DNA of 64,000 nucleotides from Bolinopsis microptera (lineage: Eukaryota > Ctenophora > Tentaculata > Lobata > Bolinopsidae), in contig NC_087074.1 of NCBI RefSeq assembly GCF_026151205.1, positions 10,139,226 to 10,203,225 of the forward strand, in the 5' to 3' direction. The notes beneath the pieces are model-generated. The model had not been told where the DNA came from. It worked only from the letters and a program-made list of their open reading frames with translations, and did not search any database. Shown one piece after another: positions 12,246 through 61,670 of this stretch. Each line of letters opens with the position of its first letter. The first letter of the stretch is position 1. The translations under genes and the position numbers were made by a program.

Positions 12246-13124
12246 TACTTAGGGGGGGGGGGGGGGGGGGGGTCAACCTCATTTTACCTCATCCCAATTT
12301 TGCCTTTTTTGGCTGCCCGAATGAGGTAAAATGAGGTAAAATGAGGTAAATTTCGGCAAAAATTTTATAGATCATGACTCTCGTTCTTAAATAATTTTGC
12401 CGATAATCAGGTTAGTTTACTCAAATCAGACATCCTGAGCTACTTGTCAGTGATCTAGTCTTATTATGGGACTATTCTAATAGTAATACACTAAAATGTA
12501 CATAATGGCCACATTTATATACAACTTATGAAGCAACATATACCCTAAAAGGCTTATTTTCGGAAATGTGGCTGAAAAACGGATTTTTGCCGAGCGAACA
12601 ATGACAGTATCCACTAATGGGCTATTGGACTGTTACCTAGAAAGGTCTTAAAGACTCATGAACAACATAGCATTTGTCACAAGATGTAAGATGACTCACT
12701 CTGTGTCCAGAAACACCTACAAAAATTGGAGAATGATCTACTTTATTGGGCATCTCTCTTAATGGGCCAGGACAGCAGCATATTTGTGTCTTACGAAAGG
12801 GCATTTTTTTAAATTACGGTTTCTTAAGGTCAAAGGATCGGCTGCTAACAGCAAATTGTTCGCAATTGCCGACTCATGCACATCATATACTCAAAAACGC
12901 TCACTTTAGGAGTCATTAGTAAATAACTACTACATGATTGGACACGTTCAAAAAAAGGTGGCACTAGATATTGATTTTTTTAAATGCGTTTTAAAAATAG
13001 TCATTGCTCTTTGTTGGTTGATATATCTATCTATACCTTTAGAAATTCGATTGAATTGCATGATCCTAAAATCACGGAGTCTCTAGTGCTTATATCACAG
13101 GAGTTATCGTTATTTTAGCGCCAA

Positions 13125-16660: not shown

Positions 16661-17331
16661 AAACTTATTTAATAATCACTCATAAAGTGAACGTTTTTGA
16701 GTATATGATTATGATGTGCATGAGTCGGCAATTGCAAACAATTTGCTGTTAGCAACTGACCCTTTGACCTTTACTTTGACCTTTACTAAAGTAACCGTAA
16801 TTTAAAAAAATTGCCCTTTCGTAAGACACAAGTATGCTGTTGGCCTGGCCCATTAAGAGAGATGCCCAATAAAGTAGATCATTCTCCAATTTTTGTAGGT
16901 GTTTCTGGACACAAAGTGAGTCATCTTACATCTTGTGACAAATGCTATGTTGCTCATGAGTCTTTAAGACCTTTCTAGGTAACAGTCCAATAGCCCATTT
17001 GTGAATACTGTCATTGTTGATGTTCGCTCGTATGAAATAATTTTGTAATGAATTTTTTTATGCCTTTTTTGTATCGCATTTTTTGGATAAAGTTGATTGA
17101 TTAAAAGTAAATAATTGTACACTAATTTTGTCTCAGATCTACGTTTTTTACGTTTGGAATTTTTGATAAAATATTTTTAGATCATGAATACGATGTTGTA
17201 ACATTGAAACGTCGAGTTATTCCTTTCCTGATTAGAGCATATTTCCTTGTCGCATCAAACAGGATCAATACAAATTTACACAAGAATGCAATCGTACACG
17301 TAATAGAGAAGGAGCTAGGAAGTGAACTGCT

Positions 17332-19065
17332 TTGCGATATGTTGTTATGTTTAAGTTTAACCTTCGTTCGTTTCTCACCAAAGAATGGGAATTTCTCCGC
17401 CTTTCAGGGTCCTTTATCATCATAACGGGTGTGTATAGCCTGATGGGGTTTATAACCCTGGTCTTTGCTGGTAAGATGAACCAGGCTCACTTGGCAGGGG
17501 TGGGACTAGCTATCACGCTCTTCAATCTTGCTGTAAATTCAGTTTCCTCCGGATACTCCTCTATATTTGACACATACGGGCCCCAGGTTCATGGCTCTGA
17601 GAGGAAGTCTGAGTTAGGGACTGTTCTCTTCAAATGTCTCCTTCAGGGCATCCTGGTCAACTTAATTATTGTGGGTCCATACCTGAACTTGGTGTTCATC
17701 GTAGACCTGTTACCTGACTCAGGGTTGTACTCGGACACACCTGATCTAAGTGATCCAGGAGAGGATTTTAGAGATATAGCAGTGGCTTATCTTAGGATGA
17801 CTTTGGTGGTGGAGAATCTAGATTACACCCTGGTCATGATTTCTAAGTACTTTGCTATCCAGGGGTACGACAAGTTCGTGTATTTAGTCTCTGTTGTCAT
17901 GGTTGGGTGTCATATCCTCTTTAACTACATTCTAGTGACGGTATTTCAGCTTGGTGTTGACGGGTTAAGCTTGGCTGCTATCTTAGGACGGCTGTTTCCG
18001 CTTTTAGTGTCGTTGACAGTTTGTTTCATCATGGTGAGGAGAGGGAAATTTTCTTGGAACGGGTTTTCTATTCGTGCCCTGTTAGGCTGGGGACCAATGG
18101 TTAAACTGGGCCTGGCTGGAGCTATCGAGTGTTTTGCAGAAGTTTTCCTAATTGAGATAGCAGTTTTCTTGAGTCAGTTCGACGGGGCGGATGCTTTATC
18201 TGTGGTAATCATAATGAATCAGCTAACATTCATTTGGTGGGCCGTAGCGTATGGTATGGCCCGAGCATCAGCTAATCTCATTGGGATGGCTTTGGGAGAG
18301 GGAGACGCAAATAAAACACGATACGTTATGAAACTATCTCTTCTGAACTCAATTTTAGTATCCACAACGCTTGCTATCATCTGCTATTCCTTGAGAATTG
18401 AAGAAGTTCTGATGTTTTCCTCCGATGGTGACGTTAAGGATTTATTCTTGGCAACGTTTTGGGTAGTTTGCCTGGGTATCCCCGTAAATAACGTGCAAGT
18501 ATCTCTCAACCAAGGGATCCTCGTAGCTTTTGGTGCCCAGGAGTACACAGCATGGTCTATGAGTATAGTCTGTTATTTGATCGGACTACCAATAATTCTC
18601 ATAACAATATTTCTATCAGACTTAAGGGTTTCTGGTATTTTCTTGGGGGTCATCGTAGTGGACGTTATTACGATAGTGACGGCTTCGCTAAAGATTTGGA
18701 CGGTTGACATCGACAAAGAAATTACCAATTCTAAGGAGAGAGTGGATGGAAAGAAAGGAAATTCTCGTGCGCGTGATTCAGATTGCGTTGCTGGGACAGA
18801 AACGTCAGCCAATGGAATTTACGATAACCCAACCTGTTCTGTGAAGTATGATGCAAATGAAAAGACTGTTCAAACACAAGAGACTGCTACTAATAATGAC
18901 GAGGCTAGTGATCCTAATGATGATATTTTTGGAGACATACTTGAGGAGGATCAGGGTAGAGATCCTAACGCTGATTTTAAGGAAATAAGAAACGTTTTAC
19001 TAGCTTTTATTGCAGCTGTTATATTCTGTGTGAGTTTAGCTGGGATTTCCTTGATCAGACAATAA
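17332..19065 (+). CDS. MATE-family (SLC47-like) multidrug/organic-cation antiporter, intronless
   Basis: 577 codons without an intron. MATE proteins export organic cations or drugs in exchange for H+ or Na+ across membranes. About twelve hydrophobic segments fill residues ~25-450, followed by a charged loop (~465-545) and one more hydrophobic segment near the C-terminus (LLAFIAAVIFCVSLAGISLI). A 12+1 layout of this kind is known for animal SLC47 proteins. Family-like stretches are ANLIGMALGEGDANKTR and the QGILVAFGAQEYTAWSMSIVCYLIGLPI region. The start could be the first Met or Met6. Lack of introns and the Penelope-like 5' flank suggest a retrocopy. The frame is intact, so it may still be functional. 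A diverged inverted partial copy follows it. Confidence 0.85.
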   Translation: MRYVVMFKFNLRSFLTKEWEFLRLSGSFIIITGVYSLMGFITLVFAGKMNQAHLAGVGLAITLFNLAVNSVSSGYSSIFDTYGPQVHGSERKSELGTVLFKCLLQGILVNLIIVGPYLNLVFIVDLLPDSGLYSDTPDLSDPGEDFRDIAVAYLRMTLVVENLDYTLVMISKYFAIQGYDKFVYLVSVVMVGCHILFNYILVTVFQLGVDGLSLAAILGRLFPLLVSLTVCFIMVRRGKFSWNGFSIRALLGWGPMVKLGLAGAIECFAEVFLIEIAVFLSQFDGADALSVVIIMNQLTFIWWAVAYGMARASANLIGMALGEGDANKTRYVMKLSLLNSILVSTTLAIICYSLRIEEVLMFSSDGDVKDLFLATFWVVCLGIPVNNVQVSLNQGILVAFGAQEYTAWSMSIVCYLIGLPIILITIFLSDLRVSGIFLGVIVVDVITIVTASLKIWTVDIDKEITNSKERVDGKKGNSRARDSDCVAGTETSANGIYDNPTCSVKYDANEKTVQTQETATNNDEASDPNDDIFGDILEEDQGRDPNADFKEIRNVLLAFIAAVIFCVSLAGISLIRQ

Positions 19066-19451
19066 ACTGGGCTTTGTTCAAATGGTTTGAATGTTAAACC
19101 TCGATTGCTGTTGGTGAATTTAGATATTTCGATAGGGACATCTTATATTCGAAAGTATATGATTATTGGAGGTGATTTGGTTCTGAATCTGTACGTCAAA
19201 TCTATTGAGGTGTCATAACTTCCATTATTGTTATCGCCGATGTTTCAATTTTTCAATACAGATGACAAATGACAAACTGGCTAAATTTGAAATATGTGAT
19301 CGTAGATACAACTTTTATTTGTGCACAGTTTATAGAGGAATTTTGAACCTAAAGACAATCAAATACAGTAAAACCCCGATTTACCTCGCCCCGATTTACC
19401 GCAAACCCCGATTTATCACGGCTGTTTCCTTTCTCCCAAAGGATTATCTCT

Positions 19452-20258
19452 CGTTGCCAAGAATAAATCCTTAACGTCACCATCGGAGGAAAACATCAGA
19501 ACTTCTTCAGTTCTCAAGGAATAGCAGATGATAGCAAGCGTTGTGGATTCTAAAATTGAGTTCAGAAGAGATAGTTTCATAACGTATCGTGTTTTATTTG
19601 CGTCTCCCTCTCCCAAAGCCATCCCAATGAGATTAGCTGATGCTCGGGCCATACCATACGCTACGGCCCACCAAATGAATGTTAGCTGATTCATTATGAT
19701 TACCACAGATAAAGCATCCGCCCCGTCGAACTGACTCAAGAAAACTGCTATCTCAATTAGGAAAACTTCTGCAAAACACTCGATAGCTCCAGCCAGGCCC
19801 AGTTTAACCATTGGTCCCCAGCCTAACAGGGCACGAATAGAAAACCCGTTCCAAGAAAATTTCCCTCTCCTCACCATGATGAAACAAACTGTCAACGACA
19901 CTAAAAGCGGAAACAGCCGTCCTAAGATAGCAGCCAAGCTTAACCCGTCAACACCAAGCTGAAATACCGTCACTAGAATGTAGTTAAAGAGGATATGACA
20001 CCCAACCATGACAACAGAGACTAAATACACGAACTTGTCGTACCCCTGGATAGCAAAGTACTTAGAAATCATGACCAGGGTGTAATCTAGATTCTCCACC
20101 ACCAAAGTCATCCTAAGATAAGCCACTGCTATATCTCTAAAATCCTCTCCTGGATCACTTAGATCAGGTGTGTCCGAGTACAACCCTGAGTCAGGTAACA
20201 GGTCTACGATGAACACCAAGTTCAGGTATGGACCCGCAATAATTAAGTTGACCAAGAT
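19452..20258 (-). pseudogene. Inverted, truncated copy of the adjacent MATE ORF
   Basis: The minus strand repeats the segment at about 17652-18460 of the MATE ORF almost exactly, in the opposite orientation. It lacks the N-terminal and C-terminal parts. The encoded peptide differs at only a few positions (for example IIVG to IIAG, ILVST to ILEST, LRIEE to LRTEE). It stays open through the copied part but ends in unrelated sequence. Together with the intact copy it forms an ~800-bp-armed hairpin in single-stranded DNA. Confidence 0.9.
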
Positions 20259-20274
20259 GAATACTGTCTGGTTC

Positions 20275-20610
20275 GCTCGGCAAAAATCCGTTTTTCAGCC
20301 ACATTTCCGAAAATAAGCCTTTTAGGGTATATGTTGCTTCATAAGTTGTATATAAATGTGGCCATTATGTACATTTTAGTGCATCAGAATAGTCTCTACA
20401 ACCTTCCTAGGCGGAAATGCCAAAAAATCACGGAAATTATGAACTGCGTCAAGCCAAAAACCGTTTTCGGCCATATTTCCGAAACGAAGCATTTTAAGGT
20501 ATATGTTGCTTCGTAAGTTGTACATAAATGTGGCCATGAGGCACATTTTGGAGTATCGGAAGAGTCTTTAAGACCTTCCTGGACTGAAATACAAAAATTC
20601 GAGTGACCGC
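20275..20610. repeat. Tandem subterminal repeat of the 8.8-kb element, ~180-bp spacing
   Basis: The segment AAAAATCCGTTTTTCAGCCA, TTTCCGAAA, GGTATATGTTGCTTC and TAARTTGTAYATAAATGTGG occurs at 20281-20395 and again, diverged, at 20455-20580. Its inverse is at 12480-12600. Confidence 0.75.
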
Positions 20611-21043
20611 GAAACCCTGAAAAAGGGTGTGGCCGAAAACGCCCTCATTGCATTTATTTCAAAAATGCAATGAAGTCCAAATGTTTTAAGAATCATCTAG
20701 AGAGGTGATAACTGTTGAGAAATCGCTTTTAACACGAAAAGCTAACGAGATTCCGTTTCGTCCCAGACAAACAGATTACCCCAAGTTTGGAGAGTAAGTA
20801 GGTTAAACTGGGAATGCCCCTTCCCAGGGACCACATCACCCCTAATAAACCATTAAATATCATGGGAGACCATGCACAGCCTCGAATTATAGTACAATGA
20901 CTTCGAATAAACCTTTTTTGTCTCTAAAAAAGGCTCAGAAAACTAGATTAATTTACCTCATTTTACCTCATTTTACCTCATCCCAATTTTGCCTTTTTTG
21001 GCTTCCCGAATGAGGTAAAATGAGGTTGACCCCCCCCCTACTT

Positions 21044-21703
21044 AACTTAAGTAAAGATCGTGAGATCACAATCTGAGTACGAGTTTATTTTTATGCCTGA
21101 CCACCTGAATCAGAAGGGTACATACTCGAATGATAATAGGTAATTGGGTAAACTTAGTTAAGTATCAGAATGTATATTTTCGAAATTTATCATTTATAAC
21201 TCGTACTGACATAATATATTCGTATAAACTCACTGAAATATTCTAATAAACTGCAAAAAAGTAAAACAAGATTTCAGTAAAACCCATTATAAATTAGCAT
21301 GCCACTCCCTATGCACGGCGCTCTTTTCAAGATTTTGCACAGGCGAGCGAATCGAGCAATAGACTAGCAAGCTAGGCAAGTAAAACAACTATCTAGATAA
21401 TGAACTATTGGTTGCAGGACTAAATGAGCATTGACCTTAAGCGATTCTTTTTTTAACGATTCAATTGGGTGGAGAATCGGGAAATCATATATTTAAACAA
21501 AAAGGGTTTACTGTGTACTGTGAAAACGTGCATTTCAGGTCAACCGGCATCAGACAACAAATTCAGAAGATTTATCATACTCTGAAAATTCAAACTTAAG
21601 CTCACCAAAATTCCCTAGAATATTAAACGTAACTGTATTTTCAGATGAACGAAATTCTATATCTTTGCTCTAATAAATTAACGAAGGTCTGAAAGTTCAA
21701 AGA
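21044..21703. other. Intergenic, downstream of AACS
   Basis: AT-rich, no open frame or repeat that I can support. For AACS, which runs on the minus strand, the 3' UTR should start here; TTTATTA (an AATAAA in the minus direction) occurs near 21670-21678. Confidence 0.5.
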
Positions 21704-30700: not shown

Positions 30701-33700
30701 CTTGATTCAGGGGATACTGTTATTATACAGTAATATGACAGTGGTCCGCGGACCGTGGTCGGGCTATCTCGATACTGCCCATTAATTGACATTAATTGAC
30801 ATTAATTGACATTAATTGACATTAATTGACATTAATTGACATTAATTGACGTTGCATCCCCCCCATTAGAATACATAATTGTATATTACCCAATATTCTT
30901 ACAGTTAACCAAAGTAAAGTGATAGATAACGCTAATGACTCGGCAAAAAATAAATATATTACACCGTTTTAATAAAGTTAATACCAGTCAATTATCTATA
31001 CCGAGCCTTGATTTGCCGGGCATGTTTCCTTCCCTGGTTTCAACCTTAAACTAACGTAAATCGTAAAATTACTGTGTATTTTACCTTCTTTAGTGAGTGT
31101 TTGACATTATTATTATTATAGGTACATTCAAATTATAACACTATTCAGTTCTTCACTGAGTCCAAAATCAAGTCCGAATTGTAAACAGGATAGAATGTCC
31201 TGGATACTTGTTATTATGACGGCCCCACTGGAGATTAGAGATGGTCTGAGTTCTGAGAATCTGAAGAACAGTGTCACTTGGTCCGCTTTTTACACAAACT
31301 GTTTTAACATGATAATTGTGAGCAGCTTAGTCCTAATTCAGCTGTTAGTTCACTGCTGGTGCAGTGGGCCTGACTGCTCTCCTTATCATCACCATCACAT
31401 TTCCTCTCAGCTCCCTATTTCTAGCTAATATGATGAGCGGAGTCAGAAGTGCGTTCAAGAGTGGTAGTGTTGTGCTTATCATTATAATACAAACCATCAA
31501 GGCAAAGTTATCGACACTTCCAATGAAAGAGGAACTTTGAAAGTAAAGCTGAAGAACTGCGATTCCTGAGTTACAAACCAAGAAAGCAGCAGAAAGGATC
31601 GAGACTGTGGTGTTCACATGTGACCAGTCAGTGAGCTGTGGGTGATCAGGGTCACGTGCACGAGCTCTGAGCCGGGTCACTAAAAACTGTATCACAAGGC
31701 AAACCAGAACAACACAAATCGGAACTAGATACAGCAATCCTACTAGTAAATCTGGAATCATCCAGTAAACCTTGATTGGTATCAACAAGTCTAAAGCGGT
31801 AAGCCAAATGGACATATTATGACCAACAAAAGAAATGGCAACATTAATCCAGAGGAACACCCAAGGGTGAGGGTCAGAGTCGGGGCCTTCGTAGATTTCA
31901 TACCAGACATCCACTACAGTCAATGAAACTAGGAAAGTGATGACAAGAGTAATTGCTATCTTCAGAGCTGTTGTGTTGACCTGGTGGAAAGGGAAGGATA
32001 CTTTTATCGTTCTCAAAACAGCGAGCACCATGTTGAAGTTAACAGATGAGGCGTAGCCGAGCAGCGACAGTACAGTGTGCATCACCACACACACGGTAGT
32101 AGAGCTAGAAGGAATAAAGTCACGTGACATCAGTAGAACACATATCATGAGGATCAGGTGACCAACACACGTGATCAAATCAGCTGCTGTTATCATGATA
32201 AATAGTGTGTTGGTGAGGGTACCACGGTTTCTCCAGTAGTAGGATAGGACTATGATACAAACAGCTAACACTAGGATACACAAAGGAATGTTGAAGGGGA
32301 CCACGAACATAAAGACACTCTCGTGATTATCATTAAGATCTGCCATCTGAGCTGAAGAGTGGATCAAAAGGACTTATCTGCCATCTGACTTATTTTTATA
32401 AATCAAGCGTTACATTTCAGCCATGTGCAAAATTACAATGACATATTTTGATAAACTAATTGATAATTGGTACTGCAATATAAGTTGCTTAATGTGTGGC
32501 CGAATGACAACTAACTAAACAAGAAAAATAAACTTGATTATATAATAATTAATTCGGCTGAACCAACACATAGCAAGAGGCACATTAACGTTGGGGCCGT
32601 GAAAAGATAGGACTATAGAGGATCAACAAAATATATCAGAAAAACATATTATGCCATAATATTTCTCAGTCTGAAAATACCAATAAATACACTATATCAT
32701 CAACTCAATTCAAAATTTCACTGCGCGAATTTTTCAATAATTTTTAGAAAAGTTGTTCCGGTTTTCATCCCAGTTTTACATCTCACAATTCAACAAGGAA
32801 GTGAAGGATCATGTATAGAGTTTAACATCAAAAAGTTATGTTAGTAGAAGATCACTGATTGGGGGGGGGGGGGGGGGGGAGACTAATATACATAGTTATA
32901 TAATATTGCGGAGTGTAAATAATAAATATATGTGATAAGTTTTAAGAATTTTATCTCTCGAAACACGGCAACATAACCACAATTAACAGTAAAAATAAAA
33001 GAGAGTAACGTACCGTTGTCATCGTAAGCATAGACAGCCATTCCGAGGTTCCTATACTGTAGTTGACCCCTGTGAACGGGCACCTCGGCTACCGAACCAG
33101 AGAAACAGGATATAATGTCTGTACCACCTGAATAGTAATACAATATAAAGCATGATTAGATGATGAATAGTTTGATTTGTTATGGTTATATCACTTTATT
33201 TATGGTTGGTTATATATGACCTTATTTATTTGTACATGTTGATGAATGATAACTAAAGTATTGAGAGGTTATGCCTAAAAAGCTGGTTAAATCATAACTT
33301 GAAAAGATTGTTAAGTTGTTAATTAAGTAAATTTGCTCTAATTGAGGGCACAGTGCAGCTTATTCATATTTAACATCATCACTATCATGGCTTAAGCTAT
33401 TTTAAAATACAGAATAAAAACATAGCCGTTTAGTAAGTAAGTAGGTTATCAAAACACAAAGTCTGGAAGAGTTACAGAGTACAGAATATTCTATAGAGTC
33501 GGGAAGAGGAAATCAGTAACATTACCAGCAATGGAAGCAAGTTGTATGTGCTGTTTGATGTTGTTGTAAACGTAGTCGTATTGGCGAGGAGCCAGTGGAG
33601 CTCCTGTTGACAACATTGCCCGGAGCGAACTGAGATCGTGTGTGGCTCCTGCACCATGGGTGTTAGTTATAACAACAATTATAACTTGAATTAAATTAAA

Positions 33701-41196: not shown

Positions 41197-41443
41197 TGCA
41201 TACCGTCTCAATGAAAAATGCAGTATCTTCTATTGAAGAATTTTCGACGGAAAACAATTGAGAAATACGATATTTTGGGGAAATATGTTATGATCGGCCT
41301 ATGCTGCTATGAAGTAGAACCTAAATAGTCGAACAAGCATCTTAAAACCAATTTCAACATTCAACAAGCATGCTATTTCATAATATGCTCTATACAATAC
41401 AGTTGAACTATACAATACAGTTGAACAACACGTTTTTCAGCCT

Positions 41444-41930
41444 TTTCATGGGATTGAGACCGGGACCATTTTGCGCAGTGATCAGAGTGTACAAGTTTGA
41501 GAGAAGCTCGGTTTACACTGACTTACATTACTTGTTGGTCTACTTATCTGACTTCTACAAGCGGTACATTGACGACGCCACCAGCACAGCTGTAACAAGA
41601 GAAGAAGCTCTAGCACTTGTTCAGAGTATCGCAGACCAGGACCCTGACAAGAAACTCAAGTGGGAGGTAGAGTTTCCGGAGAACGACCAAGAGTTCATCC
41701 CATTCCTTAACACAGAGCTTAGAGTGGAACCTGATGGAACTGTGACGAGCCGCTTGTACAGTTTACATAGGGGGTCAGAACCCAATTTAGAATTTGAGAT
41801 TTTAAAAACAGAAAGCAACACAGCTAGAAGAAAGATTGCAGAAGCAATGCTTATTTTGAAAGTCAAACCTAACATTAACAAGAGAGATGAGTTAGAAACA
41901 ATCAAACGTTTTTTAGTAACAAGTACATAA
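41444..41930 (+). pseudogene. Upstream partial Penelope ORF copy with internal deletions
   Basis: Matches the full ORF from GLRPGPFCAVIRVYKFERSS onward. Compared with the full copy it lacks about 42941-44302 and about 44621-45240. The second junction has 2-bp (AC) microhomology and is not a GT-AG boundary, so it is a deletion and not a spliced copy. The first 60 bp carry a small duplication (CTATACAATACAGTTGAA). The frame stays open across both deletions. Confidence 0.85.
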
Positions 41931-42608
41931 TAAACAGGGTGTAACATATTTTATACTTTACAGACAGGGGATTGTCTACACATATGTAGTGATTTTTAGT
42001 GATATTTATAGGTTTTGTTTACTTTCTGAGTACAGGGACCACATCTCACACACGCACACTTCCGCCTCCTATTCAACACACTACCCTTACAACATCAATC
42101 AAACCATATTAGGCTCCCACGTTTCACACTTCTCATTGGTCAGTACGATTCCCGCCATTTCCACTCCACACTAGATACATACCTACACACTTCACATCAT
42201 GCACCTGTTCACCGTTGTAGCACTCCATGCTTCTGTATCATGTGTAGTATATTTAGTAGTAGTTTTAGGAATGTACAGTATTTACTATAAAAGTTTGTCG
42301 TCGTATAAATTAGTTTTGTTATGAATTTTGTTATGACTTTTTTGTATCGAATTTTTGGATAAAGTTGATTGATTAAAAATAAATTAATGTACACAAAATT
42401 TGCCTCAGATATATGTTTTTTACGTTTTGAATTTTTAACACTTGTTTTTAGATCATGAATACGATGTAGTTACATTGAAACGTCGAGTAATCTCCTTTCC
42501 CTAATAAGAGCATTTTTACTTGTCGCAACAACCGGGATAAAGATAATTTTACCCAGAATACATTACAACAATGCGACTCATAAATAATACTCCAATCCGG
42601 ATTTTACA
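41761..42608 (+). repeat. Penelope-like pLTR, first copy
   Basis: Nearly identical to 45238-46090. Runs from the end of the ORF through the 3' UTR and the putative 5' leader to the first codons of the next ORF copy. Its later part (42312-42570) is the segment also found upstream of the MATE ORF. Confidence 0.85.
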
Positions 42609-45411
42609 TGAACTTATTCAGTCCCGAGAAACTTTTGGAACGGCGAAATCATTTCTTGCAGCTGGAGAAAAGTTGAAAATCGCAGAACAGAAACTAAATT
42701 TCTTAAAACGATGTAAACGACGACAAGTTTTTCCAGTTTTCATTTCGAACAGTTTTTCACATCAACAGTCATTATTTCCCATCTGTCAATCTAGGAATAT
42801 ACAACATCATCTGAACAGACTCAGAACAGTAGCATTAAATCAACATATTTCTTATCAGTATCAGATTATCGCAGACAGTAAACTTCATATTGCACAGTTC
42901 AAGAACACTCTATACAATACAGTTGAACAACACGTTTTTCATAGAATTATAGCCATATCAGAAAGAAACCAGATTTCTATTAAAGAACAGTATAAGATGA
43001 ACCTGCAGAACAAGTTTACTTGGCTACTCAGTAAATATTATCCACCACCGCCCCCTACTCCACCGACAGTTATTCAACCTGCAGCAGATCGCGTGACTAC
43101 ACTCAACTGTGAATCAGTTTCAGATAACCAGAAATCTGTTCTTGCACTTGGGCCTAATTTTGCAGTAACACCACATGTTAATCAGGAGTTCAAGGACAAA
43201 GTTTCCATGGACATTGCACAATGCGTGTTTAAGATCAGACATAAGCAAGCATTTGAACAACAACCAGTAGAACAGTCTATGGATTCAGAAGAACAGGCTA
43301 ATAATACTCCAGAACATCATGAAGAAGCAGAAGAAGCAGAAGAGCCTACCTCGAAGAAGATCAAGAGGATTTGTCCCTTCCCCACACCCTTCACCCGAAC
43401 CCCTGACCCCGCTTGCCCTGAACTTGAGGATAAACTCGCATGTTTCAACCGTTTTGTCCTGAACTTAGTGAATAACCATCAGTCAAAAGACAACCTTACT
43501 CGCTCACAGAAACAAGGCTTATATTCACTAAGAACGGATAGAACTATACATGTCTCAGTTTCAGACAAGTGTGGAGAGTTCGTAGTTACCACCAAGGATA
43601 TTCATAGAACGCTGACGGAGAAACACCTAGAGGAAACTGCAGTTTACCTGCAGATACTCCCAACTAGGAAGGTACGAGGTCAGACAGTGACAGTTACGGA
43701 ACCCACCTCCATCCAGAATTCACAACTCATAAAAAGAATGACCACTCAACTGGTAGATAGCTCCAATCAATTGTGGAAGAAAGTATGGACACAGCGAGGG
43801 CTCGATGATGATTATTTCAGACAAATCAGAGTTCCGGATCATGTTTCTCTTCCAGTCTTATATGTACTTATCAAGACTCACAAGAATTCTCCAGAATGTT
43901 TCAGAAACACCATCCCTCTGGAACAGGTGAAAGTACGACCCATTATCAGCTGTGTTGACTCACCCACAGAGAGATTGAGCTGGCTGGTGACAACCATCCT
44001 CAAACCATTACTGAAGGAAATACCCAGTCACCTTGGTAATCTCTTTGAACATCTGGAAACTCTTCGTGCAATTCCGAAAGAACAGCTAGCTGGCAGGAGA
44101 ATCTTCTCGGCGGACATTTCAGCACTTTATACCAACATAAATGTCCAAGGTTGTATTGATGACGTTATAGAACTGGCCACTGAGCACCGGGAAAAACTTG
44201 ATCTCATGGGACTGAACCTGACTGATGTTCACGAGATCCTATTGCACATCCTGACTAGTTCATACTTTGTGTATAATGGGACTCTGTGGATACAGCAGGA
44301 TGGCCTTTTCATGGGATTGAGACCGGGACCATTTTGCGCAGTGATCAGAGTGTACAAGTTTGAGAGAAGCTCGGTTTACACTGACTTACATTACTTGTCG
44401 GTCTACTTATCTGACTTCTACAAGCGGTACATTGACGACGCCACCAGCACAGCTGTAACAAGAGAAGAAGCTCTAGCACTTGTTCAGAGTATCGCAGACC
44501 CGGACCCTGACAAGAAACTCAAGTGGGAGGTAGAGTTTCCGGAGAACGACCAAGAGTTCATCCCATTCCTTAACACAGAGCTTAGAGTGGAACCTGATGG
44601 AACTGTGACGAGCCGCTTGTACCGTAAGCCACAGCAGAAAGACATCACACTTCACAAGAATTCATGTCACCCAGAATCTGTGAAGACGAACACCGTGATC
44701 AACCTGTATAAAGAAGCGGACAAGATCTCGTCAGGACCTCAGGAGAGAGAACATTCATACAGCATTTTAGACCGTCTTATGACTAGAAACGGGTATCAAA
44801 CACCCAGAAATTATTCCAACAGACGTCGTAGTAGTATTAGTAATAGAAATAGGGAGGATAACAGAACAGTGCTTAAGTTAGATTTTATCTCAGACAGTAT
44901 CAGTAACAGAATTAGGAATCATATTAAACAGAACAATTTACCTATTAAAGTTATATTTTCCCCAGCTAGAAAACTAAGAAATATTGTGTGTAATAACAGA
45001 CCGTATGATAAGAGAACCTGTATTATTAACTCCTGTAAAATTTGTCCTTTATTAATAACTGAAAATAAAGATTGTGAGGTGAAGAACGTTGTGTATAAGA
45101 TTACCTGTAAAATCTGTAATAATATTTATATTGGTGAGACGTGCAGGAGGGCACATGATAGGCTCGGAGAGCACCTAAGATATGCTAAATTTCCTTTAAC
45201 TCCTTCTAACACTAGTCAAGCTTTTGCTATTCATTATAACAGTTTACATAGGGGGTCAGAACCCAATTTAGAATTTGAGATTTTAAAAACAGAAAGCAAC
45301 ACAGCTAGAAGAAAGATTGCAGAAGCAATGCTTATTTTGAAGTTCAAACCTAACATTAACAAGAGAGATGAGTTAGAAACAATCAAACGTTTTTTAGTAA
45401 CAAGTACATAA
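42571..45411 (+). CDS. Penelope-like element polyprotein: reverse transcriptase + GIY-YIG endonuclease
   Basis: 946 codons, intact. Penelope-like elements encode an RT related to telomerase plus an endonuclease that opens target DNA. An N-terminal Arg/Gln/His-rich region (1-300, Pro-rich at ~150) precedes the RT. RT motif A is FSADISALYTNI (~residue 510) and motif C is RYIDD (~620). A CxxC pair (CKICPLL, CKICNNIY) leads into the GIY-YIG domain, VYKITC to YIGETCRR (~842-857), then the R..EH segment. The segment before motif C reads GLFMGLRPGPFCAVI, where these RTs usually have a GLPMG-type motif with different followers, so it is divergent. Probably autonomous and recent. Confidence 0.93.
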   Translation: MRLINNTPIRILHELIQSRETFGTAKSFLAAGEKLKIAEQKLNFLKRCKRRQVFPVFISNSFSHQQSLFPICQSRNIQHHLNRLRTVALNQHISYQYQIIADSKLHIAQFKNTLYNTVEQHVFHRIIAISERNQISIKEQYKMNLQNKFTWLLSKYYPPPPPTPPTVIQPAADRVTTLNCESVSDNQKSVLALGPNFAVTPHVNQEFKDKVSMDIAQCVFKIRHKQAFEQQPVEQSMDSEEQANNTPEHHEEAEEAEEPTSKKIKRICPFPTPFTRTPDPACPELEDKLACFNRFVLNLVNNHQSKDNLTRSQKQGLYSLRTDRTIHVSVSDKCGEFVVTTKDIHRTLTEKHLEETAVYLQILPTRKVRGQTVTVTEPTSIQNSQLIKRMTTQLVDSSNQLWKKVWTQRGLDDDYFRQIRVPDHVSLPVLYVLIKTHKNSPECFRNTIPLEQVKVRPIISCVDSPTERLSWLVTTILKPLLKEIPSHLGNLFEHLETLRAIPKEQLAGRRIFSADISALYTNINVQGCIDDVIELATEHREKLDLMGLNLTDVHEILLHILTSSYFVYNGTLWIQQDGLFMGLRPGPFCAVIRVYKFERSSVYTDLHYLSVYLSDFYKRYIDDATSTAVTREEALALVQSIADPDPDKKLKWEVEFPENDQEFIPFLNTELRVEPDGTVTSRLYRKPQQKDITLHKNSCHPESVKTNTVINLYKEADKISSGPQEREHSYSILDRLMTRNGYQTPRNYSNRRRSSISNRNREDNRTVLKLDFISDSISNRIRNHIKQNNLPIKVIFSPARKLRNIVCNNRPYDKRTCIINSCKICPLLITENKDCEVKNVVYKITCKICNNIYIGETCRRAHDRLGEHLRYAKFPLTPSNTSQAFAIHYNSLHRGSEPNLEFEILKTESNTARRKIAEAMLILKFKPNINKRDELETIKRFLVTST

Positions 45412-46090
45412 TAAACAGGGTGTAACATATTTTATACTTTACAGACAGGGGATTGTCTACACATATGTAGTGATTTTTAGTGATATTTATAGGTTTTGTT
45501 TACTTTCTGAGTACAGGGACCACATCTCACACACGCACACTTCCGCCTCCTATTCAACACACTACCCTTACAACATCAATCAAACCATATTAGGCTCCCA
45601 CGTTTCACACTTCTCATTGGTCAGTACGATTCCCGCCATTTCCACTCCACACTAGATACATACCTACACACTTCACATCATGCACCTGTTCACCGTTGTA
45701 GCACTCCATGCTTCTGTATCATGTGTAGTATATTTAGTAGTAGTTTTAGGAATGTACAGTATTTACTATAAAAGTTTGTCGTCGTATAAATTAGTTTTGT
45801 TATGAATTTTGTTATGACTTTTTTGTATCGAATTTTTGGATAAAGTTGATTGATTAAAAATAAATTAATGTACACAAAATTTGCCTCAGATATATGTTTT
45901 TTACGTTTTGAATTTTTAACACTTGTTTTTAGATCATGAATACGATGTAGTTACATTGAAACGTCGAGTAATCTCCTTTCCCTAATAAGAGCATTTTTAC
46001 TTGTCGCAACAACCGGGATAAAGATAATTTTACCCAGAATACATTACAACAATGCGACTCATAAATAATACTCCAATCCGGATTTTACAT
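45238..46090 (+). repeat. Penelope-like pLTR, second copy
   Basis: Repeats 41761-42608 and ends exactly where the TSD begins, with the first codons of the ORF (ATGCGACTCATAAATAATAC) at its 3' end. Confidence 0.85.
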
Positions 46091-60457: not shown

Positions 60458-61670
60458 TTACAAGAGGGTATAGAGGGTGGCAAGGAGGGGTACGAGGAAT
60501 GCGGTGAGAGTTGAAGCAGAGGACATCTTGTTACACTCAGCAGTCGTACATTCCGCGCATTTCTTAGCTTTAAGGTCTTCAGCTGTGCATGGTCCACATC
60601 CACTTTGATTAACTTTGAAGGTCTTATCGGCAGATTCTCCAGGCATGTGGCATTTGATGGCAGTATCTTTGAGTCTTTTGCAGGTAACTGCTGTCTCCTT
60701 CATCACCTGTTTATCGTCCTTGACCTCGTAGTCGTAGCACTTAAAGTCTGCAGCTGTCTCTGCGGTCTTTTGGCAGGCAGTCTTTGAGTTTCCATCGCAG
60801 TCTTGGCAGTTGGCATTATTGGTATCACAAGCTCCACATCCGTAGGTCTGGCCGGTTGCCAATCCGGTGTATTCAATGAACTTTGGTTGATGGCACTTGG
60901 CGGCTGGAGCTTTTCCAGATTCTGTTGCACAAACTGTAGGAGCAGCAGCACCATCTGATCCTTGGATGCACATGATTGGTGGTCTGTTGCACTCAGCTGT
61001 GTCGCACTCTACACACGTCTTTGCTGTCTTGTCCGCAGCACTGCATGGACCACATCCCTTGTTCGCCAACTTGTAAGTTTTGTCGGAAGATGGTCCTGGC
61101 ATGTTGCACATGATAGTAGTGGCTTTGAGTCTTTGGCAGGTGGTTGATTCTTTCTTGGGTGTGAGCTTAGTTGCATCTTCCAGCAGTTCATAGTCGTGAC
61201 ACTTGAACTCTACACCTGTTTCTTTCTTTATGTTACAGGCAGCAACTGTTGTTCCGGTACAGGCTTCACAAGTGGCATCCGTGTTAGCGACACATTCCCC
61301 ACAACCATAAGTCACACCTGCTGACATCCCTGTGTACTGAACAAACTTAGGCCTGAAAGAAATTATTTTGTTAAGTTATAGAATAAATTGTGGCAAGATT
61401 CTAAAGCACTCTTTTGGTCTTGCTATTAGTATACAAATATTGGTATATAAAACAAATATTGGCATATAATAAATATTGGTATATAACAAAACATCGAAAA
61501 TTCAAAGTTTTCGTCCGAACAAAGTTCACTTACTGGTGGCATTTAATGTCATTTGCGCCACAATCTTTAGGAGTCGTATCCGTCCCGTCACCCTGTACAC
61601 ATTTTATAATAGCATCACTCTGATGAACTGCCACCAACACCAAGCAAAGCGTAACAAGGGCCACCTTCAT
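60458..61670 (-). CDS. GPI-anchored cysteine-rich protein with four Ly6/uPAR-like domains, 2 exons
   Basis: Exons 61670-61534 and 61352-60458 join (phase 2) to 343 aa. A signal peptide MKVALVTLCLVLVAVHQSDA begins it. Then two ~150-residue repeats, each of two similar Cys-rich units. Units share K-C, CHQPKF(V/I)(Q/E)YTG, TYGCGxC....C..C, C(Q/K)RLK, MPG(P/E)S(S/A)DKT(Y/F)K, GCGPC and close with C(D/T)TAECN. The final CN after closely spaced Cys recalls Ly6/uPAR (three-finger) domains. The C-terminus MSSASTLTAFLVPLLATLYTLL is hydrophobic with no cytoplasmic tail, the pattern of a GPI-attachment signal. Probably a cell-surface protein; function unknown. Confidence 0.82.

Follow-up and report, generated by a model that had tools for sequence, protein, structure and literature searches.

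How an intact transporter gene came to lie directly behind a piece of a Penelope-like retroelement, inside an arm of another transposon, is the question raised by a locus on contig NC_087074.1 (C3) of the ctenophore Bolinopsis microptera. The stretch analyzed, hereafter the window, is 64,000 nucleotides long (C3 positions 10139226-10203225), and searches covered the 264.65-Mb genome, whose 232 contigs include C1 to C13, of 15.2 to 26.2 Mb. An original prediction, made from the window sequence, regarded the gene, a member of the MATE (SLC47-like) family, as a retrocopy captured, mobilized, and driven by 5′ sequence of the retroelement. Window positions 17031-20257 represent one composite insertion that combines a Penelope-like piece, the intact MATE gene, and an inverted partial copy of that gene. 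The reading that accounts best for it, offered here with guarded confidence, is that an ordinary Penelope insertion took place upstream of a MATE gene and that the block comprising the Penelope pseudo-long terminal repeat (pLTR) and the MATE gene was then copied, with a fold-back, into the transposon arm. The features of the locus are as follows.

12486-12926, minus strand: left arm of the host transposon, with the uninterrupted form of the insertion site at 12597-12613 (window self-comparison)
16665-17018, plus strand: inner part of the host right arm, 88.7% identical to 12926-12597
17002-17030, plus strand: left copy of the 23-bp target duplication, with a 6-bp insertion (comparison with empty sites)
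17028-17290, plus strand: Penelope-like pLTR piece without the tail; left edge near the pLTR head, right (inner) edge GAATGCA, a tail-less integration end (alignment and sampled Penelope ends)
17289-17323, plus strand: MATE-cluster flank, overlapping the pLTR end by two bases and similar to the 5′ flank of B-type MATE copies
17347-19065, plus strand: intact MATE transporter open reading frame (ORF), 572 codons from ATG plus stop (ORF, Pfam, structure, and NCBIfam searches)
19066-19441, plus strand: MATE 3′ flank, ending in a truncated end of a miniature inverted-repeat transposable element (MITE), presumably pogo-like, at 19366-19441 (alignment)
19442-19451, no strand: turning point between the two MATE copies, with a few filler bases; these and the preceding bases resemble MATE 18436-18448
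19452-20259, minus strand: inverted partial MATE copy, sense equivalent 17649-18456, 99.5% identical to the direct copy
20258-20279, plus strand: right copy of the target duplication, with one gap and one mismatch (comparison with empty sites)
20271-20597, plus strand: outer part of the host right arm, with a second copy 172 bp further on (window self-comparison)

The host is a repeated inverted-repeat transposon, and the insertion splits its right arm (16665-17018 plus 20271-20384, the latter duplicated at 20464-20597), as had been noticed originally. A genome search with the left arm end returned 1210 candidate places. The best 40 of these were scored, and all 40 (the window left arm and 39 others, some of them the two arms of one element) align across the insertion site unbroken; the site is empty in each of the 16 arm copies read from among the 39. 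With the empty-site form as the reference, the imperfect direct repeat already seen at the edges of the segment proved to be an imperfect 23-bp target duplication: the left flank matches all 23 bases around its 6-bp insertion (alignment score, 37) and the right flank scores 36; the highest score reached by 19,863 45-mers taken at random from the window is 23. Because the left copy of the duplication adjoins Penelope DNA and the right copy adjoins the inverted MATE piece, entry of the whole composite at once is the simplest account. The composite structure, duplicated target, and empty sites support movement of the gene copy together with Penelope sequence. The locus is a real one-off gene relocation, an event of a kind already described.

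The Penelope-like piece aligns with positions 42301-42562 of a Penelope-like element in the window (84.2% identity over 265 columns) and matches equally well its second pLTR at 45782-46043; the direct repeats of that element (41758-42609 and 45239-46090) are 99.8% identical. The predicted homology to the segment upstream of the Penelope ORF is therefore genuine. The similarity ends 8 bp before the Penelope ATG at 42571, not because the ORF has been replaced, as was suggested, but because the piece ends exactly at a tail-less integration end. Its terminal GAATGCA (the equivalent of 42562) is the spot where the tail-less outer ends of two other inserts, L088 and L089 (GAATACA), meet target DNA. 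Solo Penelope pieces on C5 and C7 end at 42562 and 42565. A search with the pLTR-ORF junction yielded 43 matches in the best 40 of 726 candidate places, of which 29 stop at 42608-42611, 6 at 42614-42622, and 3 at 42562-42565, with 5 continuing into the ORF; because the search prefers long matches, short ends are under-counted in these figures. Six inserts were examined at both outer ends (L051, L087, L088, and L089 whole; L090+L091 and L053+L052 by their ends). In every one, a tail-less end (42562-42568) and a tailed end (42608-42622) point outward, and the flanks share strings of 12 to 14 bp, lengths that are upper bounds because Penelope bases may be counted in them (the L053/L052 string is a TA repeat). 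Thus, pLTRs, inverted partner copies, and an optional tail are all present in this family. Two internal reverse transcription starts and an optional tail are likewise described for other Penelope elements by Frangieh et al. 2024 (PMC11167929) and in PMC3846280.

Twenty short Penelope stretches were fetched, 19 of which cover position 42301 (L052 does not). Eighteen of the 19 extend at least 37 bp further upstream, and the remaining one, L051, begins at 42290 and 42297 (11 and 4 bp upstream), at the center of a head-to-head pair. Position 17028 therefore marks either a truncation or a boundary close to the pLTR head, the part that forms the palindromic center in L051; on this sample, a common Penelope start at this position was rejected. 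Of the proposed Penelope "leader," the pLTR homology stands, but the piece does not begin at a common Penelope start, and its other edge, at 17290, is an integration end.

That end points inward at the MATE gene, not at target DNA, and is followed by ∼35 bp of retained MATE-cluster flank (17289-17323), with 97% and 94% identity to intergenic DNA that neighbors MATE copies on C10 and C7. A normal Penelope end is thus joined to MATE-cluster DNA. This resembles Penelope/Poseidon integration (PMC11167929) in that the piece ends at one of two recurrent ends near the ORF start, and differs in that the window end faces a gene. With its inward-facing end and 23-bp duplication, the locus departs from canonical Penelope integration. 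The pLTR piece is single and lies on the 5′ side of the gene; no pLTR was found on the far (3′) side of MATE. A 91-bp query spanning the pLTR-MATE junction found three candidate places in the genome, all scored: the junction occurs once, and the two other matches are to MATE-cluster flank alone. The check proposed earlier, a search for further such junctions, thus argues against mobilization as a family, and a mobile pLTR-MATE family is not supported; what survives of the capture and mobilization claim is that a gene copy moved with Penelope sequence into a site that is empty elsewhere. No Penelope sequence was found within 150 bp upstream of the six close MATE copies; the closest piece, in the opposite orientation, lies 4.2 kb upstream of copy C7b (C7:7003722-7003829).

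The predicted intact, intronless MATE frame was confirmed: 17332-19065 is open, with 577 codons counted from a TTG and 572 from the ATG at 17347. Pfam MatE matches it in two stretches (E value of 5.4e-21, above the cut-off), and NCBIfam matE matches with an E value of 1.2e-36, yet below its cut-off (126.5 of 147.4 bits). The nearest solved chain is 9r10_A, Multidrug and toxin extrusion protein 1 (E value of 5.8e-26). Compared with MATE/SLC47 transporters, the translated product has an extra polar stretch before the last helix, and the gene lacks introns. Other close copies are found in pairs on C10, C7, and C13. Those on C10 and C7 are open, one C13 copy is without the usual C terminus, and the other is split by an insert. 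This last copy (L016, C13:13837548-13838361) is broken by an element with inverted ends that we take to be mariner-like. The window gene is nearest to copy C10b, with which it shares 11 of the 22 sites shared with only one of the four cluster copies (dS of 0.072). MATE copies of types A and B are paired head to head at C10:14029287-14038879, where a remnant inverted A follows B, and tail to tail at C7:6991435-6999565, an arrangement that looks as if a single alternating array had given rise to both pairs. MATE 3′ flanks carry the presumably pogo-like MITE end, and on C7 a more complete MITE precedes an inverted MATE 3′ flank.

Besides the window, 15 of the 40 protein matches to MATE span at least 450 of the 577 residues unbroken; 14 of the 15 are free of inner stops, and 10 are distant paralogues with 26 to 59% identity. 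A few matches look split, e.g., C1:4163109-4164492 and C6:7534397-7537098. Judged from these matches, the MATE family is largely intronless in this genome, with short 5′ exons still possible, so the missing introns say nothing about a retrocopy origin. The original prediction had taken their absence as a retrocopy mark while naming a natively intronless parent as evidence against itself, and the family proved to be largely of that kind. A processed retrocopy was rejected on this ground, and no poly(A) tract was found at the 3′ edge (19380-19460).

The inverted, truncated copy at the other end is near-identical to the gene, as stated originally, with 4 differences in 808 bp. When these were polarized against six other copies, two appeared to be new in the inverted piece and one in the direct copy; the fourth (17672) is common to the direct copy and C10b only. 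A relic of a native tail-to-tail pair was rejected as its source, since such pairs differ by ∼5%, versus 0.5% here. The likeness of the turning point to MATE 18436-18448 is a weak hint of switching during what may have been fold-back copying.

In the preferred two-step reading, a Penelope-like element would first have inserted normally near a B-type MATE gene, so that one of its usual integration ends came to lie against the MATE flank, ∼56 bp before the start codon. The DNA from the pLTR head through MATE and its 3′ flank would then have been copied into the transposon arm at a staggered break that left the 23-bp duplication, the copied strand turning at the 3′ side and recopying 808 bp of the gene in reverse. 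The B-type affinity of the gene is observed directly; we infer which step came first, that the copying was of DNA, and that the strand folded back. This model is favored because the Penelope end faces the gene, MATE-cluster flank lies beyond it, the duplication is longer than those of the six Penelope inserts examined, and the pLTR appears older. The closest relatives of the pLTR piece are 92% (C11) and 89% (C5) identical, and other scored matches fall at 83 to 88% (84 to 88% for the piece itself, the value of 83% being that of L058/L059 against the window Penelope); the piece thus shares no more than 92% identity with any scored relative, compared to 99.5% between the MATE arms. Repaired breaks can carry small templated or fold-back duplications, and the locus resembles these in its short junction overlaps, filler bases, and inverted partial copy. 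It differs from them in the size of the insert, 3.2 kb with a complete gene. Several points weigh against this reading. The presumed source locus, with a pLTR just upstream of MATE, was not found in the genome searches. Gene conversion may account for the near-identity of the arms, in which case the argument from age would fall. The MATE arms are more alike than the two copies of the duplication. Finally, an order of pLTR followed by gene is also reported in PMC3846280 for a rotifer gene thought to have been moved by Penelope.

That rotifer gene forms the basis of the strongest alternative, namely, that Penelope enzymes acted in trans, either on a chimeric pLTR-MATE template or on a MATE template with a jump onto Penelope RNA at an internal start, self-priming then producing the inverted copy. 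This is a serious rival, though less probable than the preferred reading. A search of the literature on Penelope-moved genes, largely open-access and mostly at the title level, yielded one precedent, the Penelope-mediated insertion of a nonribosomal peptide synthetase (NRPS) gene in Adineta vaga (Arkhipova et al. 2013, PMC3846280). There, as in the window, a member of a host gene family lies behind a direct pLTR in one insertion with a target duplication and an empty site, and it is this shared order that keeps direct Penelope movement alive. The window locus departs from the NRPS case in having a single pLTR with no counterpart beyond the gene, an inverted piece made of MATE sequence, and a 23-bp duplication; retention of introns cannot serve as a point of comparison, because the MATE family has none. 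A single insertion with a target duplication and empty sites elsewhere suits action in trans, and so does the tail-to-tail inverted arrangement, which self-priming on a sense template is predicted to give (PMC3846280). Reverse transcription, according to PMC11167929, starts internally at two sites near the pLTR-ORF junction, and two inserts of the present family (L087 and L089) carry an inverted non-Penelope spacer. However, the far-side pLTR is absent and no Penelope end touches the target, the 23-bp duplication contrasts with the strings of 12 to 14 bp (at most) in all six inserts, the pLTR is diverged from every scored relative, and the junction is single-copy. Should this alternative nonetheless apply, with the same tentative standing, Penelope enzymes may have moved a complete host transporter gene in trans in an early-branching animal and left an intact gene headed by retroelement DNA; this would be a second case beside that of the rotifer, simpler in having one pLTR that faces inward.

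Insertion by a LINE (long interspersed nuclear element)-like retroelement of a transcript that began in the pLTR and read through MATE is improbable. Target duplications of LINEs are usually in a range near ∼20 bp, close to the one seen here, and the left edge lies downstream of the TATAAA motif of the family (42286). Transcription start sites, however, usually lie more than 15 bp from the start of TATAAA, whereas this edge is only 15 bp from it. Moreover, the 3′ edge has no poly(A) tract at 19380-19460 and falls inside the truncated MITE, and a scan of 19060-19445 turned up just two motifs, an AATAAA at 19061 that overlaps the stop codon and an AGTAAA at 19367. Neither TATAAA motif of the window pLTR (42286 and 42304) has a counterpart in a motif scan of 17000-17350, and the claim that the retroelement drives the transporter is not supported. 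Least probable is an assembly artefact at 17030 or 20260, the breaks that the original prediction had named as fatal to its own model: near-identical inverted arms are difficult to assemble, but the window contains no N, it lies on a 21.3-Mb contig, and the duplication fits an independent empty site.

The Penelope label of the window element rests on its structure, weak domain matches, and motifs in the translation that we take to be reverse transcriptase (RT)-like. Its ORF (42571-45411) matched no RT family in Pfam (E ≤ 10) or NCBIfam (E ≤ 1) and no RT chain in a PDB search. The C-terminal end (residues 838-930) matched Pfam GIY-YIG (E value of 0.0015, 19.3 bits, below the 22.6 cut-off) and NCBIfam grpIintron_endo (E value of 0.00021, 21.4 bits, below 56.05). 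A hammerhead ribozyme in the pLTR is reported for other Penelope elements in PMC11167929. No hammerhead was found here: Rfam gave no match in the window at gathering scores, and a scan of 41700-42800 at E ≤ 5 gave only a weak mir-1302 match (E value of 1.3). Upstream of the Penelope ORF, 41408-42609 is a partial tandem copy without the part equal to 44626-45238. Inserts L087 (C13:3724640-3725130) and L089 (C5:4566650-4567110) have different flank duplications and a common non-Penelope spacer as the central inverted repeat, so a derivative consisting of the pLTR plus the spacer may have moved at least twice; a 66-bp query from L089 gave 78 matches in the best 40 of 449 candidate places.

The outer arms of the host transposon (12252-12485 and 20600-21050) begin with G/C runs and ACCTCATTTTACCTCAT repeats, and their outermost part is common only to C2:22979326-22980038 among the best 40 of 1210 candidate places. 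Elsewhere in the window, the minus strand carries a 289-codon cysteine-rich ORF with two similar halves (60458-61327) and a 340-codon ORF (31345-32367) whose translation gives the impression of a multi-pass membrane protein; neither has a Pfam match at 1e-3.

Measured against the four open cluster copies, the dN/dS ratio of the window MATE gene is 0.33 to 0.53; with C13b as the reference, it is 0.61. Its private changes are 18 nonsynonymous to 11 synonymous; the corresponding counts are 4:0, 5:5, 3:6, and 5:5 for the cluster copies and 72:33 for C13b. The argument that selection proves function was rejected, as neither these ratios nor the 18:11 count separates constraint from recent neutrality. 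By an estimate from the divergence of the arms, the ORF would have gained approximately four changes after it was inserted, and its being open therefore does not prove that the gene is used.

The result of the event is a predicted intact extra transporter gene, and the 808-bp inverted repeat downstream of it could be a source of double-stranded RNA and might contribute to silencing of the MATE family. If Penelope elements carry whole genes, counts of retrocopies that are based on missing introns would mislead, as the rotifer authors argue (PMC3846280). This locus suggests three criteria for such cases, namely, the direction of the pLTR end, the length of the duplication, and the age of the pLTR. 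In the present case, each of them tilts away from direct action of Penelope enzymes, so the locus serves as a helpful warning.
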